Positions 19,254-30,202 of a DNA stretch of 33,438 bases are shown piece by piece. A program made the position numbers and the translations under genes. Positions within the stretch are counted from its first letter, which is position 1, and each line of letters opens with the position of its first letter. The stretch is from positions 1 to 33,438 of the forward strand of contig PWEJ01000117.1 in assembly GCA_003553485.1 (NCBI GenBank). Direction: 5' to 3'. Under the pieces are notes generated by a model that did no database searches, was not told the DNA's origin, and saw only the letters and a list, made by a program, of their open reading frames with translations. This stretch comes from Halanaerobiaceae bacterium (GTDB lineage Bacteria; Bacillota; Halanaerobiia; Halanaerobiales; Halarsenatibacteraceae).

Positions 19254-20348
19254 TTAATCTAAGAGTTCCTTGCTCTCATATATAGGAAAGTGCTCTTTTT
19301 GTTCCGTTAATACAGGCTCCCCTAGAAACATCTCCATTATTTCTTCTGTTTTCTCTTCAGGCTCGAGATCAGCAAACTTTTCAGGATAAATGATATTCCC
19401 AATATAGTAGGCGTTGGCTAAAATATTACTAAACTGACGGTGATAAGAAGAATAGGGTAATAGTGTATATGTCTCTCCTTCCTGGATAGCTGATAAGGCA
19501 GAAAATTCTGGCCGGGTCGCCAGATCTTCCTGGATCAAATGTAAATTGCTGGCATCTAAAAAGATTATCTCGGGATCCCATTGCAGTAGCTGTTCTCTAT
19601 CAATATTAGCCTGGGTAACTGTATCATAATCAAGGGCATCTCTGGCAGGATAATCGGCATTGATAAATTCAAAGGGAGGAAAGGGCACCCTTACTGAAGT
19701 AAGGCCATGTTCACCACGATGGGACATTCCTCCAACATAAACCTCCGGAATATCCTCTTCAGCTAAATCAGAAGTGCGTTGTTCTAAATCTGCAATAATC
19801 TCCTCCACATAACTAATAAGTTCCTCGCCTCGCTCTTCTTCCTGGAAAATTTTTGCCAGTAACTCCCAATCTTCAAAGAGCACCTCGCGATAAGCATATA
19901 GATCGCCAAAATCCAGGTAGACTACTGGAACTCCCGTCTTATCCTGCAGATCAGCAGCTTCTCCAGCATCACCAGAGTGAATGATCAGATCCGGCTCTTG
20001 CGCTGCTATCAACTCTGCATCGCCACCATGATTAGGTCCCACCTGGGGGAGTTCACGTAGTTCTGGAAATCTCAACTGGTAATCACGATAAAGTTCATCA
20101 TCATCTCCAACTTCTCCTTCTTCCACTCCAACAATTTTGTCGGTATCAACAAAATAAAGAACATTCCTTAAAGCACCAGAACCAATACCAATAACCTTCT
20201 GGGGCTCAGCAGGGACTTCCACCTCTCGCCCTGCTCTATCAGTTACCTGTCTGATGTCTTCTGCTGCCAGCAGACCACTGCCTGAAATTAAGACCAGAGC
20301 TAAAATCAGAAAAGCCAGAGACAGATTCTTAATTTTACTTTTAATCAT
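19254..20348 (-). CDS. btuF: ABC substrate-binding protein (BtuF-like), exported
   Basis: A 364-residue periplasmic-binding-protein-like protein of the helical-backbone metal receptor group. An N-terminal hydrophobic signal (about residues 1-26) precedes IRQVTDRAGREVEVPAEPQK, the family's first strand region. EPDLIIHSGDAGEAADLQ and LLQWDPEIIFLD follow. No lipobox Cys is present at the signal end, unlike many Gram-positive relatives. I chose the ATG at 20348 with GGTGGAG; the frame is open to 20462, but that extension would run into the terminator and has no ribosome site. The mature part is acidic. The riboswitch upstream suggests that the ligand is cobalamin, cobinamide or another cobalt compound. 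Confidence 0.82.
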   Translation of the reverse strand: MIKSKIKNLSLAFLILALVLISGSGLLAAEDIRQVTDRAGREVEVPAEPQKVIGIGSGALRNVLYFVDTDKIVGVEEGEVGDDDELYRDYQLRFPELRELPQVGPNHGGDAELIAAQEPDLIIHSGDAGEAADLQDKTGVPVVYLDFGDLYAYREVLFEDWELLAKIFQEEERGEELISYVEEIIADLEQRTSDLAEEDIPEVYVGGMSHRGEHGLTSVRVPFPPFEFINADYPARDALDYDTVTQANIDREQLLQWDPEIIFLDASNLHLIQEDLATRPEFSALSAIQEGETYTLLPYSSYHRQFSNILANAYYIGNIIYPEKFADLEPEEKTEEIMEMFLGEPVLTEQKEHFPIYESKELLD

Positions 20349-20463
20349 TTTACTCCACCTTTCTTTGTTTGAATTATAAAATTGAATTATAAATAAGTAA
20401 TGGGGCTTTATTAATATAACTAAAGTTAAAGCCACCCTTAAAACCCTTAAAAACTTTCCCAAA

Positions 20464-20557: not shown

Positions 20558-20610
20558 AAGGTTAGGCTTATTACCTACTACCCTTGCCATCGAGAATATG
20601 GTAGGCAACA

Positions 20611-20808
20611 CAATTAGGCAGGTCTCCTGACTTCCGGCACTCTAACAACTCAACCTTCCCTGCTTTAATAGCAAGTGGCCTGTTATAAATGCTTTTAAAG
20701 ACATTTATAACTGTTTGAGCTGCTTACACCGGTTACAGTGGCGGGCCCGTTCAGGATTTTCACCTGATTCCCTATTCTCCCCTGGCCGTAGCTAAGGGCA
20801 CCTAACTG
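20611..20808 (-). ncRNA. cobalamin (AdoCbl) riboswitch aptamer
   Basis: On the minus strand the conserved core is present in order. It shows GGGAATCAGGTGAAAATCC, then CGGGCCCGCCACTGTAA, then GGGAAGG, then the B12 box AGTCAGGAGACCTGCC. P1 is formed by CAGTTAGG (plus 20801-20808) and CCTAATTG (plus 20611-20618) with one G-U pair. A long variable arm around 20683-20711 forms a strong A/U hairpin. The element precedes the btuFCD-like operon and should switch it off when cobalamin is plentiful. Downstream are two intrinsic terminators, so control is by transcription attenuation. Confidence 0.95.
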
Positions 20809-20857
20809 CATCACTATATAATTTTTTTGTTTTTTTATCCAAATGTTACCTGGGTTA

Positions 20858-24504: not shown

Positions 24505-24533
24505 TTGACTATTAGAAACTCTTAAGATAAAAT
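24505..24533 (+). promoter_or_regulatory. promoter of the regulator-hydGEF-aspA operon
   Basis: TTGACT (24505-24510), 17 bases and TAAAAT (24528-24533) give a good sigma-70 promoter. The expected start point is near 24540, exactly where the structured leader begins, about 210 bases before the first start codon. Confidence 0.75.
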
Positions 24534-24539
24534 AAGAAC

Positions 24540-24682
24540 AAATATCATAAAGATATTTTCTCCTGACCTCAGGGCCATAAGCCTAAAGCCAGGGAGAACC
24601 TTCTATCAGATATTTTGGTGGCCTCTTAATCACAAATGGTTATATTATTTTATTTATTATCTGATAGTATTACTAAACTAAG
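24540..24682 (+). ncRNA. structured 5' leader, candidate riboswitch or attenuator of the hydrogenase-maturation operon
   Basis: Several pairings can be read directly. AATATC/GATATT (24541-24546, 24552-24557) forms a 5' hairpin. TTCTCC/GGAGAA (24558-24563, 24593-24598) closes a second domain. CTATCAGATA/TATCTGATAG (24603-24612, 24658-24667) is a perfect 10-bp stem. GGCCAT (24573-24578) can reach GTGGCC (24618-24623) across domains. GCCAGGG (24588-24594) is an exact complement of CCCTGGC (24684-24690), the 5' side of the following terminator, so it is a natural antiterminator. The antiterminator shares two G residues with the TTCTCC/GGAGAA stem, so the two states exclude each other. I do not recognise TPP, SAM, FMN, glycine, T-box, Moco or c-di-GMP consensus blocks. 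Confidence 0.6.
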
Positions 24683-24684
24683 AC

Positions 24685-24715
24685 CCTGGCAATTTATAGC
24701 CAGGTTTTTTTATTT
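24685..24715 (+). terminator. intrinsic terminator in the leader, ahead of the TM1266-type gene
   Basis: CCTGGC (24685-24690) and GCCAGG (24699-24704) close an 8-base loop, followed by seven T and then ATTTT. No plus-strand gene lies upstream in the gap. The terminator therefore acts on the operon's own leader, 35 bases before its first start codon. Confidence 0.85.
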
Positions 24716-24749
24716 TACTAAATATACTTTAATGGGAGGTAAATTTAAC

Positions 24750-25004
24750 ATGGGAGCAAGGATTGGTGTAGTTGCTATCATAATTGAAAACAGAAAAGAG
24801 GCAGCTGATAAGGTTAATGATGTACTGTCAGACTACGGCGAATTGATCATCGGCAGAATGGGAATACCTCGAGATGACAATAATATGGGTGTTATTTCTT
24901 TAATTATTGAAGGAAACAGTGATGAAGTGGGGGCTTTGACAGGAAAGTTGGGAAATCTAAAAAATGTTAGTGTTAAATCTGCTTTAACTTCCTGTGAAAT
25001 ATAA
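24750..25004 (+). CDS. TM1266-type putative hydrogenase-system regulator
   Basis: An 84-residue protein with the ferredoxin-like (ACT/NikR C-terminal-like) fold sequence of the TM1266 family. It opens MGARIGVVAIIIENR and continues with VNDVLSDYGELIIGRMGIP and GVISLIIEGNSDEVGALTGKLG. The family is found beside [FeFe]-hydrogenase maturation genes and is annotated as a putative regulator; ligand and mechanism are unknown. No DNA-binding domain is visible, so it may act as a small-molecule sensor or a partner of a maturase. The ATG at 24750 has GGGAGG nine bases upstream. The frame is open further back, but that part is the terminator and leader. hydG follows 18 bp later. Confidence 0.85.
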   Translation: MGARIGVVAIIIENRKEAADKVNDVLSDYGELIIGRMGIPRDDNNMGVISLIIEGNSDEVGALTGKLGNLKNVSVKSALTSCEI

Positions 25005-25022: not shown

Positions 25023-26459
25023 GTGATTAATAATAAGAGCTTAGCAGTTAAAGATAAGAGCCTATCAGATTTATTCCAGGAAGACTTCATTGGTGAAATA
25101 CTGACAGCCGGGAAAAAATCCAGTACAGACTCAAAACAAGTAACTGAAATCATCAGTAAAGCAAGAGAGTTAGAAGGGCTGACACCAGAGGAAGTGGCTG
25201 TTTTATTGCAGGTCGATGATGATAAGATGCTAGAAAAAATGCTGACTGTCGCTCGCGAAGTCAAAGAAGAGATTTATGGTAAAAGATTGGTGCTCTTTGC
25301 TCCTCTATATTTTGACAATCTCTGTGATAACAACTGTCTATATTGTGGTTTTAGAGAAGATAACGAAGAGGTTGAACGGAAAAAATTAACTCAGGTAGAA
25401 ATAAAAAAAGAAGTAAGGGCTCTGATATCTAAAGGCCATAAAAGACTGCTGGTTTTAACAGGGGAAAAAGTAGATGAAGATATTTCCTACCTGTTGGAAG
25501 GCATTAAAACAGCCTATGAAACTCAGACAGAACTGGGTGAGATCCGGCGCATAAATGTAGAAGTAGCGCCTTTATCAATAGCTGATTTTCGTCGCTTAAA
25601 AGAGGCTGACATTGGTACCTATACCTGTTTTCAAGAAACTTACCATGAGCCAACTTACGAGCGACTTCATCCTTCCGGGCCTAAATCTGATTATTTCTGG
25701 CGACTTGAAGTTATGGACAGGGCTTTAAAGGCCGGTATTGATGATTATGGTTTAGGAGCACTTTTTGGTCTCTATGACTACAAATTCGAAGTGGTCTCTT
25801 TACTACTCCATGCTAAATATTTAGAGGAAACTTACGGGGTTGGCCCCCATACCATTTCAGTTCCCCGCTTAAATTCAGCTAAAGGGGCTCCTCTATCTGA
25901 ACCTCCCTCTCCTGTCTCAGATTTTAAATTCAAGAAAATAGTTGCTATTTTAAGGCTGGCTGTTCCCTATACCGGGATTATCTTAAGCACCAGAGAGGAG
26001 GCCAGTTTGCGAGATCAATTATTTCAACATGGGATCTCTCAAATTAGCGCTGGCTCCCGGACATCTCCAGGAGGATATGAAGAAGCAAGGAAGCGAAACT
26101 CTGGCGAAGAACAATTTTCCCTCCATGACACCCGGCCCATGGCTGAGATTATAGCTAAACTGGCAGAAAGAGATTATCTGCCTAGTTTCTGTACCGCCTG
26201 TTATCGATTGGGCAGAACTGGGGAAGATTTCATGGATTTGGCTAAACCAGGACAAATTCAAAAGTATTGCCAGCCCAATGCTATGTTTACTTTTCAGGAG
26301 TATCTAGAGGATTTCGCCGGTGATAAACTCAAAGAGCAGGGGGAAAACTGTCTCGACCACCATCTCAAGGAAATCAAAGAGGATCATCCGGCTCTAGCCG
26401 ATAGAGTGGAGAATAGATTAAATAAAATTAGTCAGGGAGAAAGGGATCTTTATCTATGA
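25023..26459 (+). CDS. hydG: [FeFe]-hydrogenase maturase HydG (tyrosine lyase)
   Basis: A 478-residue radical SAM enzyme that splits tyrosine to make the CO and CN ligands of the H-cluster. The SAM [4Fe-4S] motif is C-x3-C-x2-C in CDNNCLYC (about 100-108). The C-terminal auxiliary cluster motif is CTAC...C (about 390-416, C-x2-C-x22-C), required for assembling the Fe(CO)2(CN) unit. The length is typical. The start is GTG 25023 with GGAGGG six bases upstream. It overlaps hydE by the ATGA junction at 26456-26459. All key Cys are present, so it should be active. Confidence 0.97.
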   Translation: MINNKSLAVKDKSLSDLFQEDFIGEILTAGKKSSTDSKQVTEIISKARELEGLTPEEVAVLLQVDDDKMLEKMLTVAREVKEEIYGKRLVLFAPLYFDNLCDNNCLYCGFREDNEEVERKKLTQVEIKKEVRALISKGHKRLLVLTGEKVDEDISYLLEGIKTAYETQTELGEIRRINVEVAPLSIADFRRLKEADIGTYTCFQETYHEPTYERLHPSGPKSDYFWRLEVMDRALKAGIDDYGLGALFGLYDYKFEVVSLLLHAKYLEETYGVGPHTISVPRLNSAKGAPLSEPPSPVSDFKFKKIVAILRLAVPYTGIILSTREEASLRDQLFQHGISQISAGSRTSPGGYEEARKRNSGEEQFSLHDTRPMAEIIAKLAERDYLPSFCTACYRLGRTGEDFMDLAKPGQIQKYCQPNAMFTFQEYLEDFAGDKLKEQGENCLDHHLKEIKEDHPALADRVENRLNKISQGERDLYL

Positions 26460-27586
26460 TTTCAAACAATCTCAAGGATTTGACTGAAGAGGATCTCACC
26501 AGTCTGCTGCAGCTAGAGGATGAGAAAAAGATTGAAAGTCTATACCGCCAGGCCTATGAGAAAAAAGTAGAGCAGGTCGGCAAAAAAGTTTATTTCCGGG
26601 GGATAATTGAGTTCAGCAATCACTGTCAGAAAAACTGCCTTTACTGTGGCATCAGACGCGACAACAATGAACTAACTCGCTTTGAAATGGATAGAGAGGA
26701 GATAATCAAGTCAGCCCGCTGGGTGCATAATAGCGGTTATGGATCGCTTGTGCTCCAGTCCGGTGAGATACAGGGAGAGGAGTTTACTGAATATATAGAA
26801 GGAATTATCAGGGATATCAAAGAGATAAGTAAAGGTGAGCTAGGAATTACGCTCTCTCTGGGCGAGCAGAAAAAAGAGACCTATCGGCGCTGGTTTGAAG
26901 CAGGAGCTCACCGCTATCTTCTGCGCATTGAGACCACAAACCCTGACCTTTACGCTGAACTGCATCCGGAAGATCATCAGTTTCAGGAGAGACTGAACTG
27001 TCTTAAAACCCTTCAGGATATTGGTTACCAGACTGGCACCGGGGTAATGATTGGTCTTCCCGGTCAAACACCGGCAGATCTGGCTGCTGATTTAAAGTTT
27101 TTTCAGCGTCAGAAAATAGACATGATAGGCATGGGGCCCTATGTCCCTCATTCTAGCACTCCCCTGGCTTCTGGAACTACTGGAGATAAAATACCTGCTA
27201 AACTAAAGGAAAAAAACCTGGATTTAAGCCTTAAAATGGTTAGCTTATTGAGGATTCTAGTTCCCGATGTAAATATCGCCGCCACTACTGCCCTGCAGGC
27301 TCTCCATCCGCTGGGCCGGGAGAAGGCTTTACAGGCAGGGGCGAATATTTTGATGCCAGTGGTAACTCCGCAAAAATACCGCGAGGATTATAAGCTTTAT
27401 GAGAATAAACCCTGTATAGATGAGAAAGCCGAGGACTGTCGGGGATGTATCAGTAATAGAGTAAAAAGTATCGGCGAGGAGATAGCTTATGATGAGTGGG
27501 GAGATTCCCGGCGATATTTCCGTCGTTTAGGAAACAGGAGTGCTGAGCTGAGGGGTGAGATAGATGCAGAAAACGCCGCAGGCTAA
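26456..27586 (+). CDS. hydE: [FeFe]-hydrogenase maturase HydE
   Basis: A 376-residue radical SAM enzyme of the HydE/PylB/BioB group, with C-x3-C-x2-C in CQKNCLYC (about 57-64). SGYGSLVLQSGE, the SLGEQKKETYRRWFEAG strand and VMIGLPGQTP are typical of HydE. A C-terminal Cys group (CIDEKAEDCRGC) may hold a second cluster, which is variable in this family. HydE acts on the HydG product to help build the di-iron subcluster. The ATG overlaps the hydG stop, and its own 3' end overlaps hydF by 23 bp, so the three maturases are translated together. Confidence 0.96.
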   Translation: MISNNLKDLTEEDLTSLLQLEDEKKIESLYRQAYEKKVEQVGKKVYFRGIIEFSNHCQKNCLYCGIRRDNNELTRFEMDREEIIKSARWVHNSGYGSLVLQSGEIQGEEFTEYIEGIIRDIKEISKGELGITLSLGEQKKETYRRWFEAGAHRYLLRIETTNPDLYAELHPEDHQFQERLNCLKTLQDIGYQTGTGVMIGLPGQTPADLAADLKFFQRQKIDMIGMGPYVPHSSTPLASGTTGDKIPAKLKEKNLDLSLKMVSLLRILVPDVNIAATTALQALHPLGREKALQAGANILMPVVTPQKYREDYKLYENKPCIDEKAEDCRGCISNRVKSIGEEIAYDEWGDSRRYFRRLGNRSAELRGEIDAENAAG

Positions 27587-28781
27587 TCGATTGCATATTG
27601 CGATTTTAGGTCGGAGAAATGCAGGTAAATCAAGCCTGATAAATGCTCTGACAAACCAGGATTTAACGGTAGTCTCCGAGGTGGCTGGAACCACCACCGA
27701 TCCGGTTTATAAATCAATGGAACTTCTGCCTTTAGGTCCCGTCACCATGATTGACACAGCCGGTATCGATGATAGGGGCGAGCTGGGTAAATTGAGAGTT
27801 AAAAAAACAAAAGAAGTTTTGGGGCGGACAGATTTAGCAATTATCGTCATCGATCCTCAACAGGGAATAGAAAAAGCCGAAAGAGAGCTCTTAGAGGAGC
27901 TTAGAGAAAGAGATATTCCTGTAGTGGGAGCAGTAAATAAAATTGATCAGACAGAAGAAGATAAAATCGAACTTCTCAGTGAAGAATTGGGAATCCAACT
28001 GCAGCCAGTAAGTGCCACCAAAAGGATAAATATCGAGGATTTAAAGAAAGAAATAGTATTTAATGCTCCCTCGGAATTTGAAGAGCCCCATATTATTGGT
28101 GATTTAATCAAACCTCAGCAGACAGTAGTCCTGGTGGTGCCCGTTGATATGGCCGCTCCCAAGGGCAGGCTAATTTTGCCACAGGTTCAGACCCTTCGGG
28201 ATGTACTCGATAATGACGCTCAGGCTCTAATTGTAAAGGAGCGGGAGCTAAAGGGTGCTTTAGAGGAATTGAAGTCAGATCCAGAGATTGTAGTTACTGA
28301 TTCTCAAGCCTTTATGGATGTTGATGCTGATGTTCCTGCCAGAATCCCCTTAACTGGTTTTTCGGTCCTATTTGCCCGCTACAAAGGAGATCTCGAGATT
28401 TATACCCGGGGGATCAAAGGTATTGATAACTTAAATCCAGGGGATAAAATTTTGATTGCTGAAGCCTGCACTCATCATCGGACCCCTGATGATATCGGGA
28501 AGGTCAAAATACCTCGCTGGTTAAGGCAGTTAGTAGGGGGTAAATTAAATTTTGAACATGTCTCTGGCCGGGAATTTCCTGACCAATTAGATAGTTATGA
28601 TTTGATCGTTCATTGTGGTGGCTGTATGGCCAATCGCAAGGAAATTTTATACCGATTGAAAAAAGCCGATAGTTTGAATATTCCCATCGTCAATTACGGA
28701 ATGTTGATCGCTCACGTCCATGGCATTTTAGATCGGGCTTTAGAACCCTTTCCTCTGGCTCAAATGATCTGGGAGGAATAA
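27564..28781 (+). CDS. hydF: [FeFe]-hydrogenase maturation GTPase HydF
   Basis: A 405-residue scaffold protein. The N-terminal GTPase domain has GRRNAGKSS (16-24), a TTTDP switch, DTAG (about 63) and NKID. A middle dimerisation domain follows. The C-terminal [4Fe-4S] domain has C (CTHH, about 302) and HCGGC (about 350), the CxH...HCxxC pattern of HydF. It assembles the di-iron subcluster and delivers it to apo-HydA. The ATG lies inside the hydE end, with GAGGGGTGAG upstream. aspA begins 2 bases after its stop. Confidence 0.96.
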   Translation: MQKTPQANRLHIAILGRRNAGKSSLINALTNQDLTVVSEVAGTTTDPVYKSMELLPLGPVTMIDTAGIDDRGELGKLRVKKTKEVLGRTDLAIIVIDPQQGIEKAERELLEELRERDIPVVGAVNKIDQTEEDKIELLSEELGIQLQPVSATKRINIEDLKKEIVFNAPSEFEEPHIIGDLIKPQQTVVLVVPVDMAAPKGRLILPQVQTLRDVLDNDAQALIVKERELKGALEELKSDPEIVVTDSQAFMDVDADVPARIPLTGFSVLFARYKGDLEIYTRGIKGIDNLNPGDKILIAEACTHHRTPDDIGKVKIPRWLRQLVGGKLNFEHVSGREFPDQLDSYDLIVHCGGCMANRKEILYRLKKADSLNIPIVNYGMLIAHVHGILDRALEPFPLAQMIWEE

Positions 28782-28783
28782 TA

Positions 28784-30202
28784 ATGCGACAGGAAAAAGA
28801 TCTGCTGGGCACAAAAGAAATTGAAGAAGAGGCTTATTATGGAATTCATACGGCAAGAGCTGCCGAAAATTTCCCTCTTAGCCAGCGCCAGGTTAACCCC
28901 CTGCTGATAAAAGCAGTGGCTGCTATTAAAGAAGCAGCAGCTACTGTCAACCATGACCTGGGTAGTTTAGCCCGGGAAAAAAAAGAGGCCATTGTGCAGG
29001 CCTGTGAGGATATTCGTAATGACAGGCTGGAAGAGCAGTTTATTTTAGATGCTCTGCAGGGAGGAGCAGGAACTTCTACGAATATGATGGTCAATGAAGT
29101 AATAGCCAATAGAGCTATTGAAATCCTGGGAGGAGAGAAGGGAGACTATAGTTTAATCCATCCCAATAATGATGTCAATAAAGCTCAGTCCACCAATGAT
29201 GTCTACCCAACTGCCCTTAGGATTGCCGGGCTCTGGCTATTACCCTGGTTAACAGAGGAGGTCTCCAGGCTGCAGGAGAGTCTTCAGGAAAAGGAGCGTG
29301 ATTTTGCTGATATACTCAAGCTGGGGCGGACGCAGCTGCAGGATGCGGTGCCAATAACTTTAGGTCAGGAGTTTTCTGCCTATGCTGAAGCCATCAGTCG
29401 TGATAGATGGCGGCTCTATAAGGTGAAAGAAAGGTTGAAAAAGGTTAACCTGGGCGGAACTGCTGTGGGCACTGGTTTGAATGCTCCTCGAAAATATATC
29501 TTTTATGTGATTCGAGAGCTGCGAGATATTACAGGTCTTGGTTTGGCTCATGCTGAAAATATGATTGACAACACGCAAAATTTAGATGTCTTTGTTGAAA
29601 TTTCCGGTTTGCTCAAAACTTTAGCCGTTAACTTAAACAAATTGGCCAGTGATCTGCGCCTTTTATCCTCTGGGCCTCAGGGCGGTCTAGGAGAGATAGA
29701 GCTGCCCCGGGTCCAGGCTGGCTCTTCCATAATGCCTGGCAAGGTCAATCCTGTAATTCCAGAAGCTGTCAACCAGGCTGCCTTTACGGTGATAAGCAAT
29801 GATCAGGCCATTACTCTGGCCGCCCAATCAGGTCAACTGGAGCTAAATGCTATGATTCCACTTTTAGCTGATAAACTGCTGAGCAATATAGAATTATTGC
29901 AAAGAACTGCCAAAATGTTTCGGAAAAAGTGCATCAGGGGCATAAAGGCCAACCAGGATCGTTGTGAGCAGTTGCTGGAAGAGAGCCTGGGATTGCTGAC
30001 TGCTTTAAACCCCTATATAGGTTATGAAAAGGCCACAGAAATTGCCCGGGAAGTAAACTCCACTGATAAAACAGTTCGAGAAGTGGTTTTACAGCAAGAT
30101 ATCTTTACTGCTGATGAATTAGATCAGATTTTATCCCCGGCCAGAATGACTCAACCGGGTTTTGCCGGCCAGAATTTCACTGTTAAACAGCAAGATAATT
30201 AA
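28784..30202 (+). CDS. aspA: aspartate ammonia-lyase
   Basis: A 472-residue member of the fumarase/aspartase superfamily. GAGTSTNMMVNEVIANRA, HPNNDVNKAQSTNDVYPTA and the signature loop GSSIMPGKVNP (about 315-325) are all present. The aspartase-type residues of the TNMMVNE and STNDV blocks favour aspartase over class II fumarase. The reaction is aspartate to fumarate plus ammonia. It follows hydF by 2 bases with GGGAGG upstream, so it belongs to the maturation operon. Ammonia from aspartate could feed the amine bridge of the H-cluster; this is inference. The last 20 bp overlap the convergent ATPase gene. Confidence 0.9.
   Translation: MRQEKDLLGTKEIEEEAYYGIHTARAAENFPLSQRQVNPLLIKAVAAIKEAAATVNHDLGSLAREKKEAIVQACEDIRNDRLEEQFILDALQGGAGTSTNMMVNEVIANRAIEILGGEKGDYSLIHPNNDVNKAQSTNDVYPTALRIAGLWLLPWLTEEVSRLQESLQEKERDFADILKLGRTQLQDAVPITLGQEFSAYAEAISRDRWRLYKVKERLKKVNLGGTAVGTGLNAPRKYIFYVIRELRDITGLGLAHAENMIDNTQNLDVFVEISGLLKTLAVNLNKLASDLRLLSSGPQGGLGEIELPRVQAGSSIMPGKVNPVIPEAVNQAAFTVISNDQAITLAAQSGQLELNAMIPLLADKLLSNIELLQRTAKMFRKKCIRGIKANQDRCEQLLEESLGLLTALNPYIGYEKATEIAREVNSTDKTVREVVLQQDIFTADELDQILSPARMTQPGFAGQNFTVKQQDN

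Follow-up and report, generated by a model that had tools for sequence, protein, structure and literature searches.

A conserved leader RNA of [FeFe]-hydrogenase maturation operons, a putative attenuator with two candidate effectors

Described systems nearest to the maturation-operon leader

Much about the control of H-cluster assembly is still to be learned, and where some H-cluster parts come from has been worked out only recently. PyrR and HutP are RNA-binding autoregulators, modulated by a small molecule in their own systems. A Moco/Wco riboswitch has been reported upstream of a ferredoxin hydrogenase (PMC9481103), and in Caldicellulosiruptor bescii the hydG operon is controlled by Rex (PMC6391272).

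The window analyzed here, a stretch of 33,438 nucleotides from a Halanaerobiaceae bacterium (contig PWEJ01000117.1), carries a maturation operon preceded by a structured leader (Table 1). Like the metabolite riboswitches that act by transcription attenuation, the RNA motif of this leader has a 5' location, a conserved core and mutually exclusive terminator and antiterminator structures; some of its variants overlap the Shine-Dalgarno sequence, and its regulon joins biosynthesis and transport genes. It differs from them in matching no Rfam class and in its core, an almost symmetric hairpin that is interrupted by a pair of 2x2 purine loops. The Moco/Wco riboswitch is similar in that a metal-cofactor regulon is linked to hydrogenase genes, but its architecture is different, and no Rfam match to Moco/Wco was found in any leader searched. 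A system of the PyrR/HutP type would fit a regulator encoded by the first gene, an RNA target in its own leader and in other operons, and strict co-occurrence of the two; the TM1266 protein encoded here, however, is NikR_C-like and acidic, and is a candidate RNA binder only. Rex in C. bescii likewise acts on an operon of a CopG-type regulator and hydG, but it does so by repression at the DNA level, which explains neither the RNA motif nor the terminator.

Leader elements in the window and the RNA family

The first gene of the operon encodes a TM1266-family protein with a relative in PDB 2nzc; domain profile searches found its NikR_C-like domain only and no DNA-binding domain, and its pI is 4.8. 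A nuoE/nuoF/hydA-type [FeFe]-hydrogenase operon lies divergently, upstream of the leader. The last gene listed is an aspartate ammonia-lyase; enzymes of this kind have been reported to accompany hyd operons and can donate nitrogen to the bridging ligand (PMC11736057).

Table 1. Leader elements and operon genes in the window, with the basis of each assignment
Feature	Position	Strand	Details and basis
Sigma-70-like promoter, TTGACT-17-TAAAAT	24505..24533	+	10/12 consensus match
5' hairpin, AAAUAUC-AUAAA-GAUAUUU	24540..24558	+	Arms 24540-24546/24552-24558; minimum-energy fold
Domain B, conserved core	24559..24597	+	P1 24559-24564/24592-24597; P2 24568-24569/24587-24588; P3 24572-24575/24581-24584
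Antiterminator 5' strand, GCCAGGG, 3' side of domain B	24588..24594	+	Exact complement of 24684-24690; matched-versus-swapped test
Long-range hairpin, perfect 10-bp stem	24603..24667	+	Stem 24603-24612/24658-24667; sequence, fold, prefix folding
Antiterminator 3' strand, CCCTGGC, overlapping terminator 5' arm	24684..24690	+	Sequence, arm-swap test, prefix folding
Intrinsic terminator, CCTGGC-8-GCCAGG and U-tract	24685..24711	+	Stem 24685-24690/24699-24704; U-tract 24705-24711
Shine-Dalgarno-like GGGAGG	24734..24739	+	Sequence
TM1266-family protein, NikR_C-like, candidate effector	24750..25004	+	TIGR03959 109 bits; PF21699
hydG	25023..26459	+	TIGR03955 542 bits
hydE	26456..27586	+	TIGR03956 360 bits
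hydF	27564..28781	+	TIGR03918 581 bits
Aspartate ammonia-lyase (aspA)	28784..30202	+	NF008909 697 bits

A sequence-only reading of this DNA had described a 5' hairpin, a TTCTCC/GGAGAA hairpin, a perfect 10-bp long-range stem and a terminator, and all of these are present. The promoter that it placed ahead of them also exists as a sequence, but five such sites occur against 3.2 expected in DNA this rich in AT, so that it is plausible rather than proven; taken alone, a match in such a region is weak. Two terminator-like sites were found (one hairpin, counted on both strands) against 0.1 expected. The terminator does stand before the first gene, although 38 nt, not 35, separate its U-tract from the ATG at 24750. 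The leader, 178 nt long, has a folding energy of -45.0 kcal/mol (z -3.5), and 0 of 200 shuffled sequences were as stable. The proposal that terminator and antiterminator exclude each other, made from the exact complementarity of GCCAGGG and CCCTGGC, agrees with prefix folding, in which one structure appears and then the other: transcripts that stop at 24690-24700 have the antiterminator as their minimum-energy fold, and by 24712 the terminator is ahead. The 10-bp stem sits inside the antiterminator and juxtaposes its two strands in the window fold. The sequence-only reading had counted this stem as part of the device; it fits both states and was seen in none of the relatives' leaders read.

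Leader-peptide attenuation was set aside on the evidence of ORFs of at least 60 aa, none of which is a candidate ahead of the terminator; the only upstream ORF of that size (24636) reads across the terminator into TM1266 without a change of frame and is no leader peptide. Elsewhere in the window, a cobalamin riboswitch (RF00174, 111 bits, 20600-20820, minus strand) lies upstream of an ORF (19254-20462) whose translation resembles a transporter substrate-binding protein.

Two sets of leaders were read, those preceding TM1266-hydG in a further 21 genomes from the same order and those preceding TM1266 at 36 loci from other groups, and leaders in both sets have a motif in common. Its core, domain B, has the consensus CCUG-P2-AAGG-P3 hairpin-CUGA-P2'-AGGG, in which each strand of the near-symmetric hairpin reads 5'-CCUGA-N3/4-AAGGG-3' and the pairing is interrupted by two purine 2x2 loops. 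Against CUGA-N-AAGG, the mean matches (of 4) are 3.6 and 3.7 on strand one and 3.8 and 3.3 on strand two, and the loop nucleotides are near-invariant in the sequence-only alignment. A second, 5' element, domain A (UCUGA-stem-AAGGA; CUGA-stem-AAGG), is present in 21 of 54 leaders versus 0.12 in shuffles. The CCUGA/AAGGG unit recurs in other topologies, as domain A and as tandem copies. In the window, the 5' hairpin occupies the place that domain A has in many relatives, without the A consensus (comparison with L034-L046).

The internal CCUGA/AAGG repeat caused the first MAFFT alignments of all leaders to be wrong, and seeds of equal geometry were used instead. Covariation was counted over pairs, with shuffle and slide controls, in 20 sequences aligned by sequence only. 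P2, the 3-4 bp between the purine loops, is paired in 97.8% of cells, and its four pairs include A-U, U-A, G-C, C-G and G-U. Changes on both sides were counted in 39 cells versus 13.0+-2.7 in shuffled alignments (0 of 500 shuffles reach 39), the covariation score is 0.543 versus 0.121 shuffled, and sliding the partner by one column lowers pairing to about 70%. The 71 copies aligned by a model, an alignment fitted to the structure, give the same P2 outcome. The switch reading had been made to depend in part on conservation and covariation in relatives, and both are found for domain B.

The leader had been matched to no known riboswitch class, and an Rfam search found no family at the gathering threshold on either the window leader or the relatives' leaders; known Rfam riboswitches were dropped as candidates on this ground. 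Rfam matches elsewhere are separate elements. A plain DNA similarity search with the window leader returned chance-level matches only and no relatives, as the leaders diverge in sequence, and no description of the motif was found in the papers searched; the structured-RNA surveys examined do not mention hydrogenase. Judged from sequence comparison, the motif almost certainly defines a conserved cis-regulatory RNA family, outside Rfam, that occurs in several bacterial phyla.

Several features relate the window copy to this family. It lies on the sense strand before TM1266-hydG-hydE-hydF, and the 5' arm of its terminator competes for the domain B 3' strand. In the unconstrained fold of the window, the helices P1, P2 and P3 keep the register of the family consensus, as does the 2x2 loop (CA/AA in the minimum-energy fold) next to P2 and P3. 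The outer CCUG...AGGG pairing is found at 24562-24564 with 24592-24594 (C-G, C-G, U.G), lengthened by UCU/AGA. P2 has only two standard pairs versus 3-4 bp in the family, and the inner loop is CAGG...CUAA versus AAGG...CUGA, two changes that together lower the score. Each of these deviations occurs singly in other members: CAGG is seen in L074, L116 and L149, and CUAA in L045, L047, L079 and L158.

Attenuation and the genes that carry the motif

An intrinsic terminator between domain B and the first gene is found in 55 of 75 leaders versus 3.2+-1.8 in shuffled ones, and at 6 of 36 unlinked TM1266 loci. In an arm-swap test, the domain B strands of 44 non-redundant leaders were paired with their own terminator arm or with those of other loci. 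Matched partners pair better than swapped ones, both for the domain B 3' strand and the terminator 5' arm (-10.64 against -9.42, p<2e-4) and for the 5' strand and the terminator 3' arm (p=0.0004), and two control pairings were not significant. The window value for the 3' strand and terminator 5' arm, -16.0, is the best in its column and among the best three by rank. A generic test, in which the P1 strands were compared with all of the downstream region, gave a modest enrichment (p3<0.05 in 12 of 74; window p=0.11), and it was the restriction to terminator arms and the swapping between loci that was decisive where this test was weak.

These data argue that most family members very probably act by transcription attenuation, and the terminator enrichment and own-arm match support an attenuator of the OFF type. 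Stabilization of domain B would favor the terminator, and OFF is probably the polarity. Under this model, domain B would fold as the RNA emerges; an effector would stabilize it and hold the 3' strand in P1 and P2, the downstream terminator could then form, and TM1266-hydG-hydE-hydF-aspA would not be made. When the effector is absent, the domain B 3' strand would pair with the terminator 5' arm and transcription would continue. In some relatives (L069, L077, L322, L335) the Shine-Dalgarno sequence coincides with the 3' strand of the motif or lies directly beside it, and here the same element, through its 3' AAGG, would act on translation.

The occurrence of the motif was surveyed with three covariance models: R1, built on copies of Desulfobacterota and Omnitrophota; R2, built on 20 copies, most of them of Bacillota; and R3, built on 71 hits. 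In 61 relatives, all R2 matches below E 0.011 precede a maturation gene, including hydF alone (L226, L235), hydG with TM1266 on the opposite strand (L227) and hydG without TM1266 (L231). A genome-wide search of 299 Bacillota genomes with R3 gave 48 matches at E<=0.01, and 47 of these adjoin TM1266, hydG, hydE, hydF or hydA, or precede an ECF-S or SsuABC-like transporter; the other one (G329) is within a coding sequence. Matches at E<=0.02 occur in 22 of 26 genomes of one class. Because the motif precedes hydF, hydG or hydE in operons without TM1266 (L226, L231, L235, L270, L276, L277), its link to hyd genes is no artefact of sampling TM1266 loci. When 122 Bacillota TM1266 loci were searched, a model match was found at 45 of 83 hyd- or aspA-linked loci, at 3 of 3 ECF-S-linked loci and at 1 of 36 others, where a transposase-like gene separates TM1266 from a linked hydG-hydF. 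The training set of R3 included 35 of the 122 loci, and only 13 of 51 untrained hyd-linked loci score, so its sensitivity is limited; in many leaders without a score the motif can be recognized by eye.

The transporter genes of the regulon are of two types. One is a NitT/TauT-type ABC transporter (SsuA family): three lineages have the motif before SsuC-type ABC operons (L280, L281, L302), and in L346 and L347 the transporter genes belong to a single operon, SsuCBA-TM1266-hydE-hydF. The motif is also found before, or in an operon with, an ECF-S gene (L322, L335, L342-L344, L350). This gene, for an ECF-type substrate-binding component (PF12822), either follows TM1266 directly or stands by itself, and in the latter case the motif overlaps or adjoins the ribosome-binding site of the gene. 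Pfam, NCBIfam and PDB, searched for the transporter substrate, gave matches only at the level of ECF_trnsprt, NMT1 and the SsuA family.

The loci vary in several further ways. ABC transporter genes share an operon with TM1266 in L346, L347, L348 and L349. In L351 (1825-3144; G183 C22), a transposase-like gene lies between TM1266 and hydG-hydF, and the motif before TM1266 is kept. Two motif copies stand between the hydrogenase structural genes and TM1266 in the Desulfovibrionaceae loci L063, L065 and L072, one about 20 nt past the stop of the upstream gene and the other about 215 nt further on. A second domain B between TM1266 and hydG, 385 to 555 nt after the first (L102, L103, L143, L166, L185, L192, L209), may give separate control of TM1266 and hydG. 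TM1266-family genes followed by a nucleosidase-like gene (translation MIGIIGAMDVEIELL...), with the motif absent (L108, L110, L131, L132, L141, L153, L177, L179, L182), are a second genomic context of the TM1266 family. Palindromes like TTTGTGAATACTTGCACAA, resembling Rex operators, lie upstream of the leader in L034, L035 and L048, and in L037-L042 a palindrome such as GGTACCAGGTACAAAAAGGCCTTTTTGTACCTGGTACC, resembling a small repeat insertion, is found just before TM1266 in the place of the terminator. Separate known elements include a TwoAYGGAY RNA (RF01731, 46 bits) between TM1266 and aspA in L111 (1841-1906, plus strand) and, close to the TM1266 locus in L113 (980-1084, minus strand), a TPP riboswitch (RF00059, 78 bits).

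Candidate effectors and the meaning of the switch

Two alternatives would deprive the window leader, or the family, of a regulatory role as a specific switch. The window leader might be an ordinary set of terminator hairpins with a chance likeness to the family, as could be argued from its scores: neither R1 nor R2 found it (R2 without a significant match), and R3, not trained on this copy, places it at 24558-24601 with 10.2 bits and E 1.7, rank 6 in the 33-kb contig and not significant there. The match is, however, in the right place and on the right strand, with its fold in the consensus register; a clearer copy occupies the same place in a sister genome (L033, 16.6 bits, E 0.045 in 25 kb); and the antiterminator complementarity of the window is among the strongest of the set. 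We therefore consider chance likeness very unlikely and infer from position, sister copy and identical fold, the copy's own score being weak, that the window in all likelihood holds a divergent family member. For the family as a whole, the leader could set a fixed level of read-through, or mark a point between hydA and the maturation genes where transcripts are terminated and processed, with no specific effector. The motif does lie just after hydrogenase structural genes in Desulfovibrionaceae and several other lineages, where it could set stoichiometry, but a fixed terminator needs neither near-invariant loop nucleotides, nor strand competition, nor sites at transporter genes, and this reading is improbable.

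If an OFF attenuator is accepted, what does it respond to? The presence of two transporter types in the regulon argues for an imported small molecule whichever component senses it. Sequence analysis shows the RNA with its covariation, the regulon, the terminator and the competing strands, whereas OFF polarity, an effector, its identity and its direct binding are inferred. The likeliest reading, to which we give nearly even chances, is that an H-cluster-linked small molecule, imported by the ECF-S and SsuABC-like transporters, is bound directly by the RNA of this new H-cluster-assembly family. The same attenuator might instead respond to TM1266, which would bind the CCUGA/AAGGG duplex and repress its own operon, other hyd genes and the transporters, perhaps under small-molecule modulation, so that the transported compound could be sensed via TM1266; this is a substantial possibility, somewhat below the first reading. 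In the Bacillota sample, all 37 motif genomes encode TM1266, some of them elsewhere on the chromosome, and the motif is found in 0 of 30 HydG-positive, TM1266-negative genomes (Fisher p=0.0005, conservative count), as a protein effector would predict. Such strict co-occurrence makes TM1266 a serious rival to a metabolite riboswitch, even if 86% of HydG-positive genomes carry TM1266 in any case and the groups cluster by phylogeny, which makes this moderate evidence. One class has lost the hyd-linked TM1266 and keeps another in the genome, and the motif stays at hydG and ECF-S. The protein is called a putative regulator, yet only its NikR_C-like domain and no DNA-binding domain was found. Domain B is a simple hairpin, which speaks against direct ligand binding; its dyad symmetry, with CCUGA-N-AAGGG on both strands, would suit a protein dimer, and the recurrence of the unit in domain A and tandem copies also favors a protein. 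Against TM1266 stands the acidity of the window protein, and we know of no TM1266 homologue that binds RNA. The sequence-only reading had spoken of a ligand- or protein-controlled switch and had listed TM1266 as a possible effector: TM1266 is now one of two leading candidates, and the conserved, covarying attenuator stands, whereas a riboswitch in the strict sense, with direct ligand binding, is still a hypothesis.

We tentatively propose that this is the first RNA-level control dedicated to H-cluster biosynthesis, in which the RNA, alone or via TM1266 acting as an RNA-binding ligand sensor, may monitor an importable H-cluster precursor or intermediate. An RNA that ties hydE, hydF, hydG and aspA to two transporter families constitutes a testable regulon, and it suggests a diffusible compound in the H-cluster pathway that is so far unaccounted for; if the RNA-level reading is true, an unrecognized, transported H-cluster precursor exists. 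A function is also proposed for TM1266, which is conserved but has no annotation beyond that of putative regulator, and a working switch would offer a means of controlling how H2-producing bacteria mature their hydrogenases.
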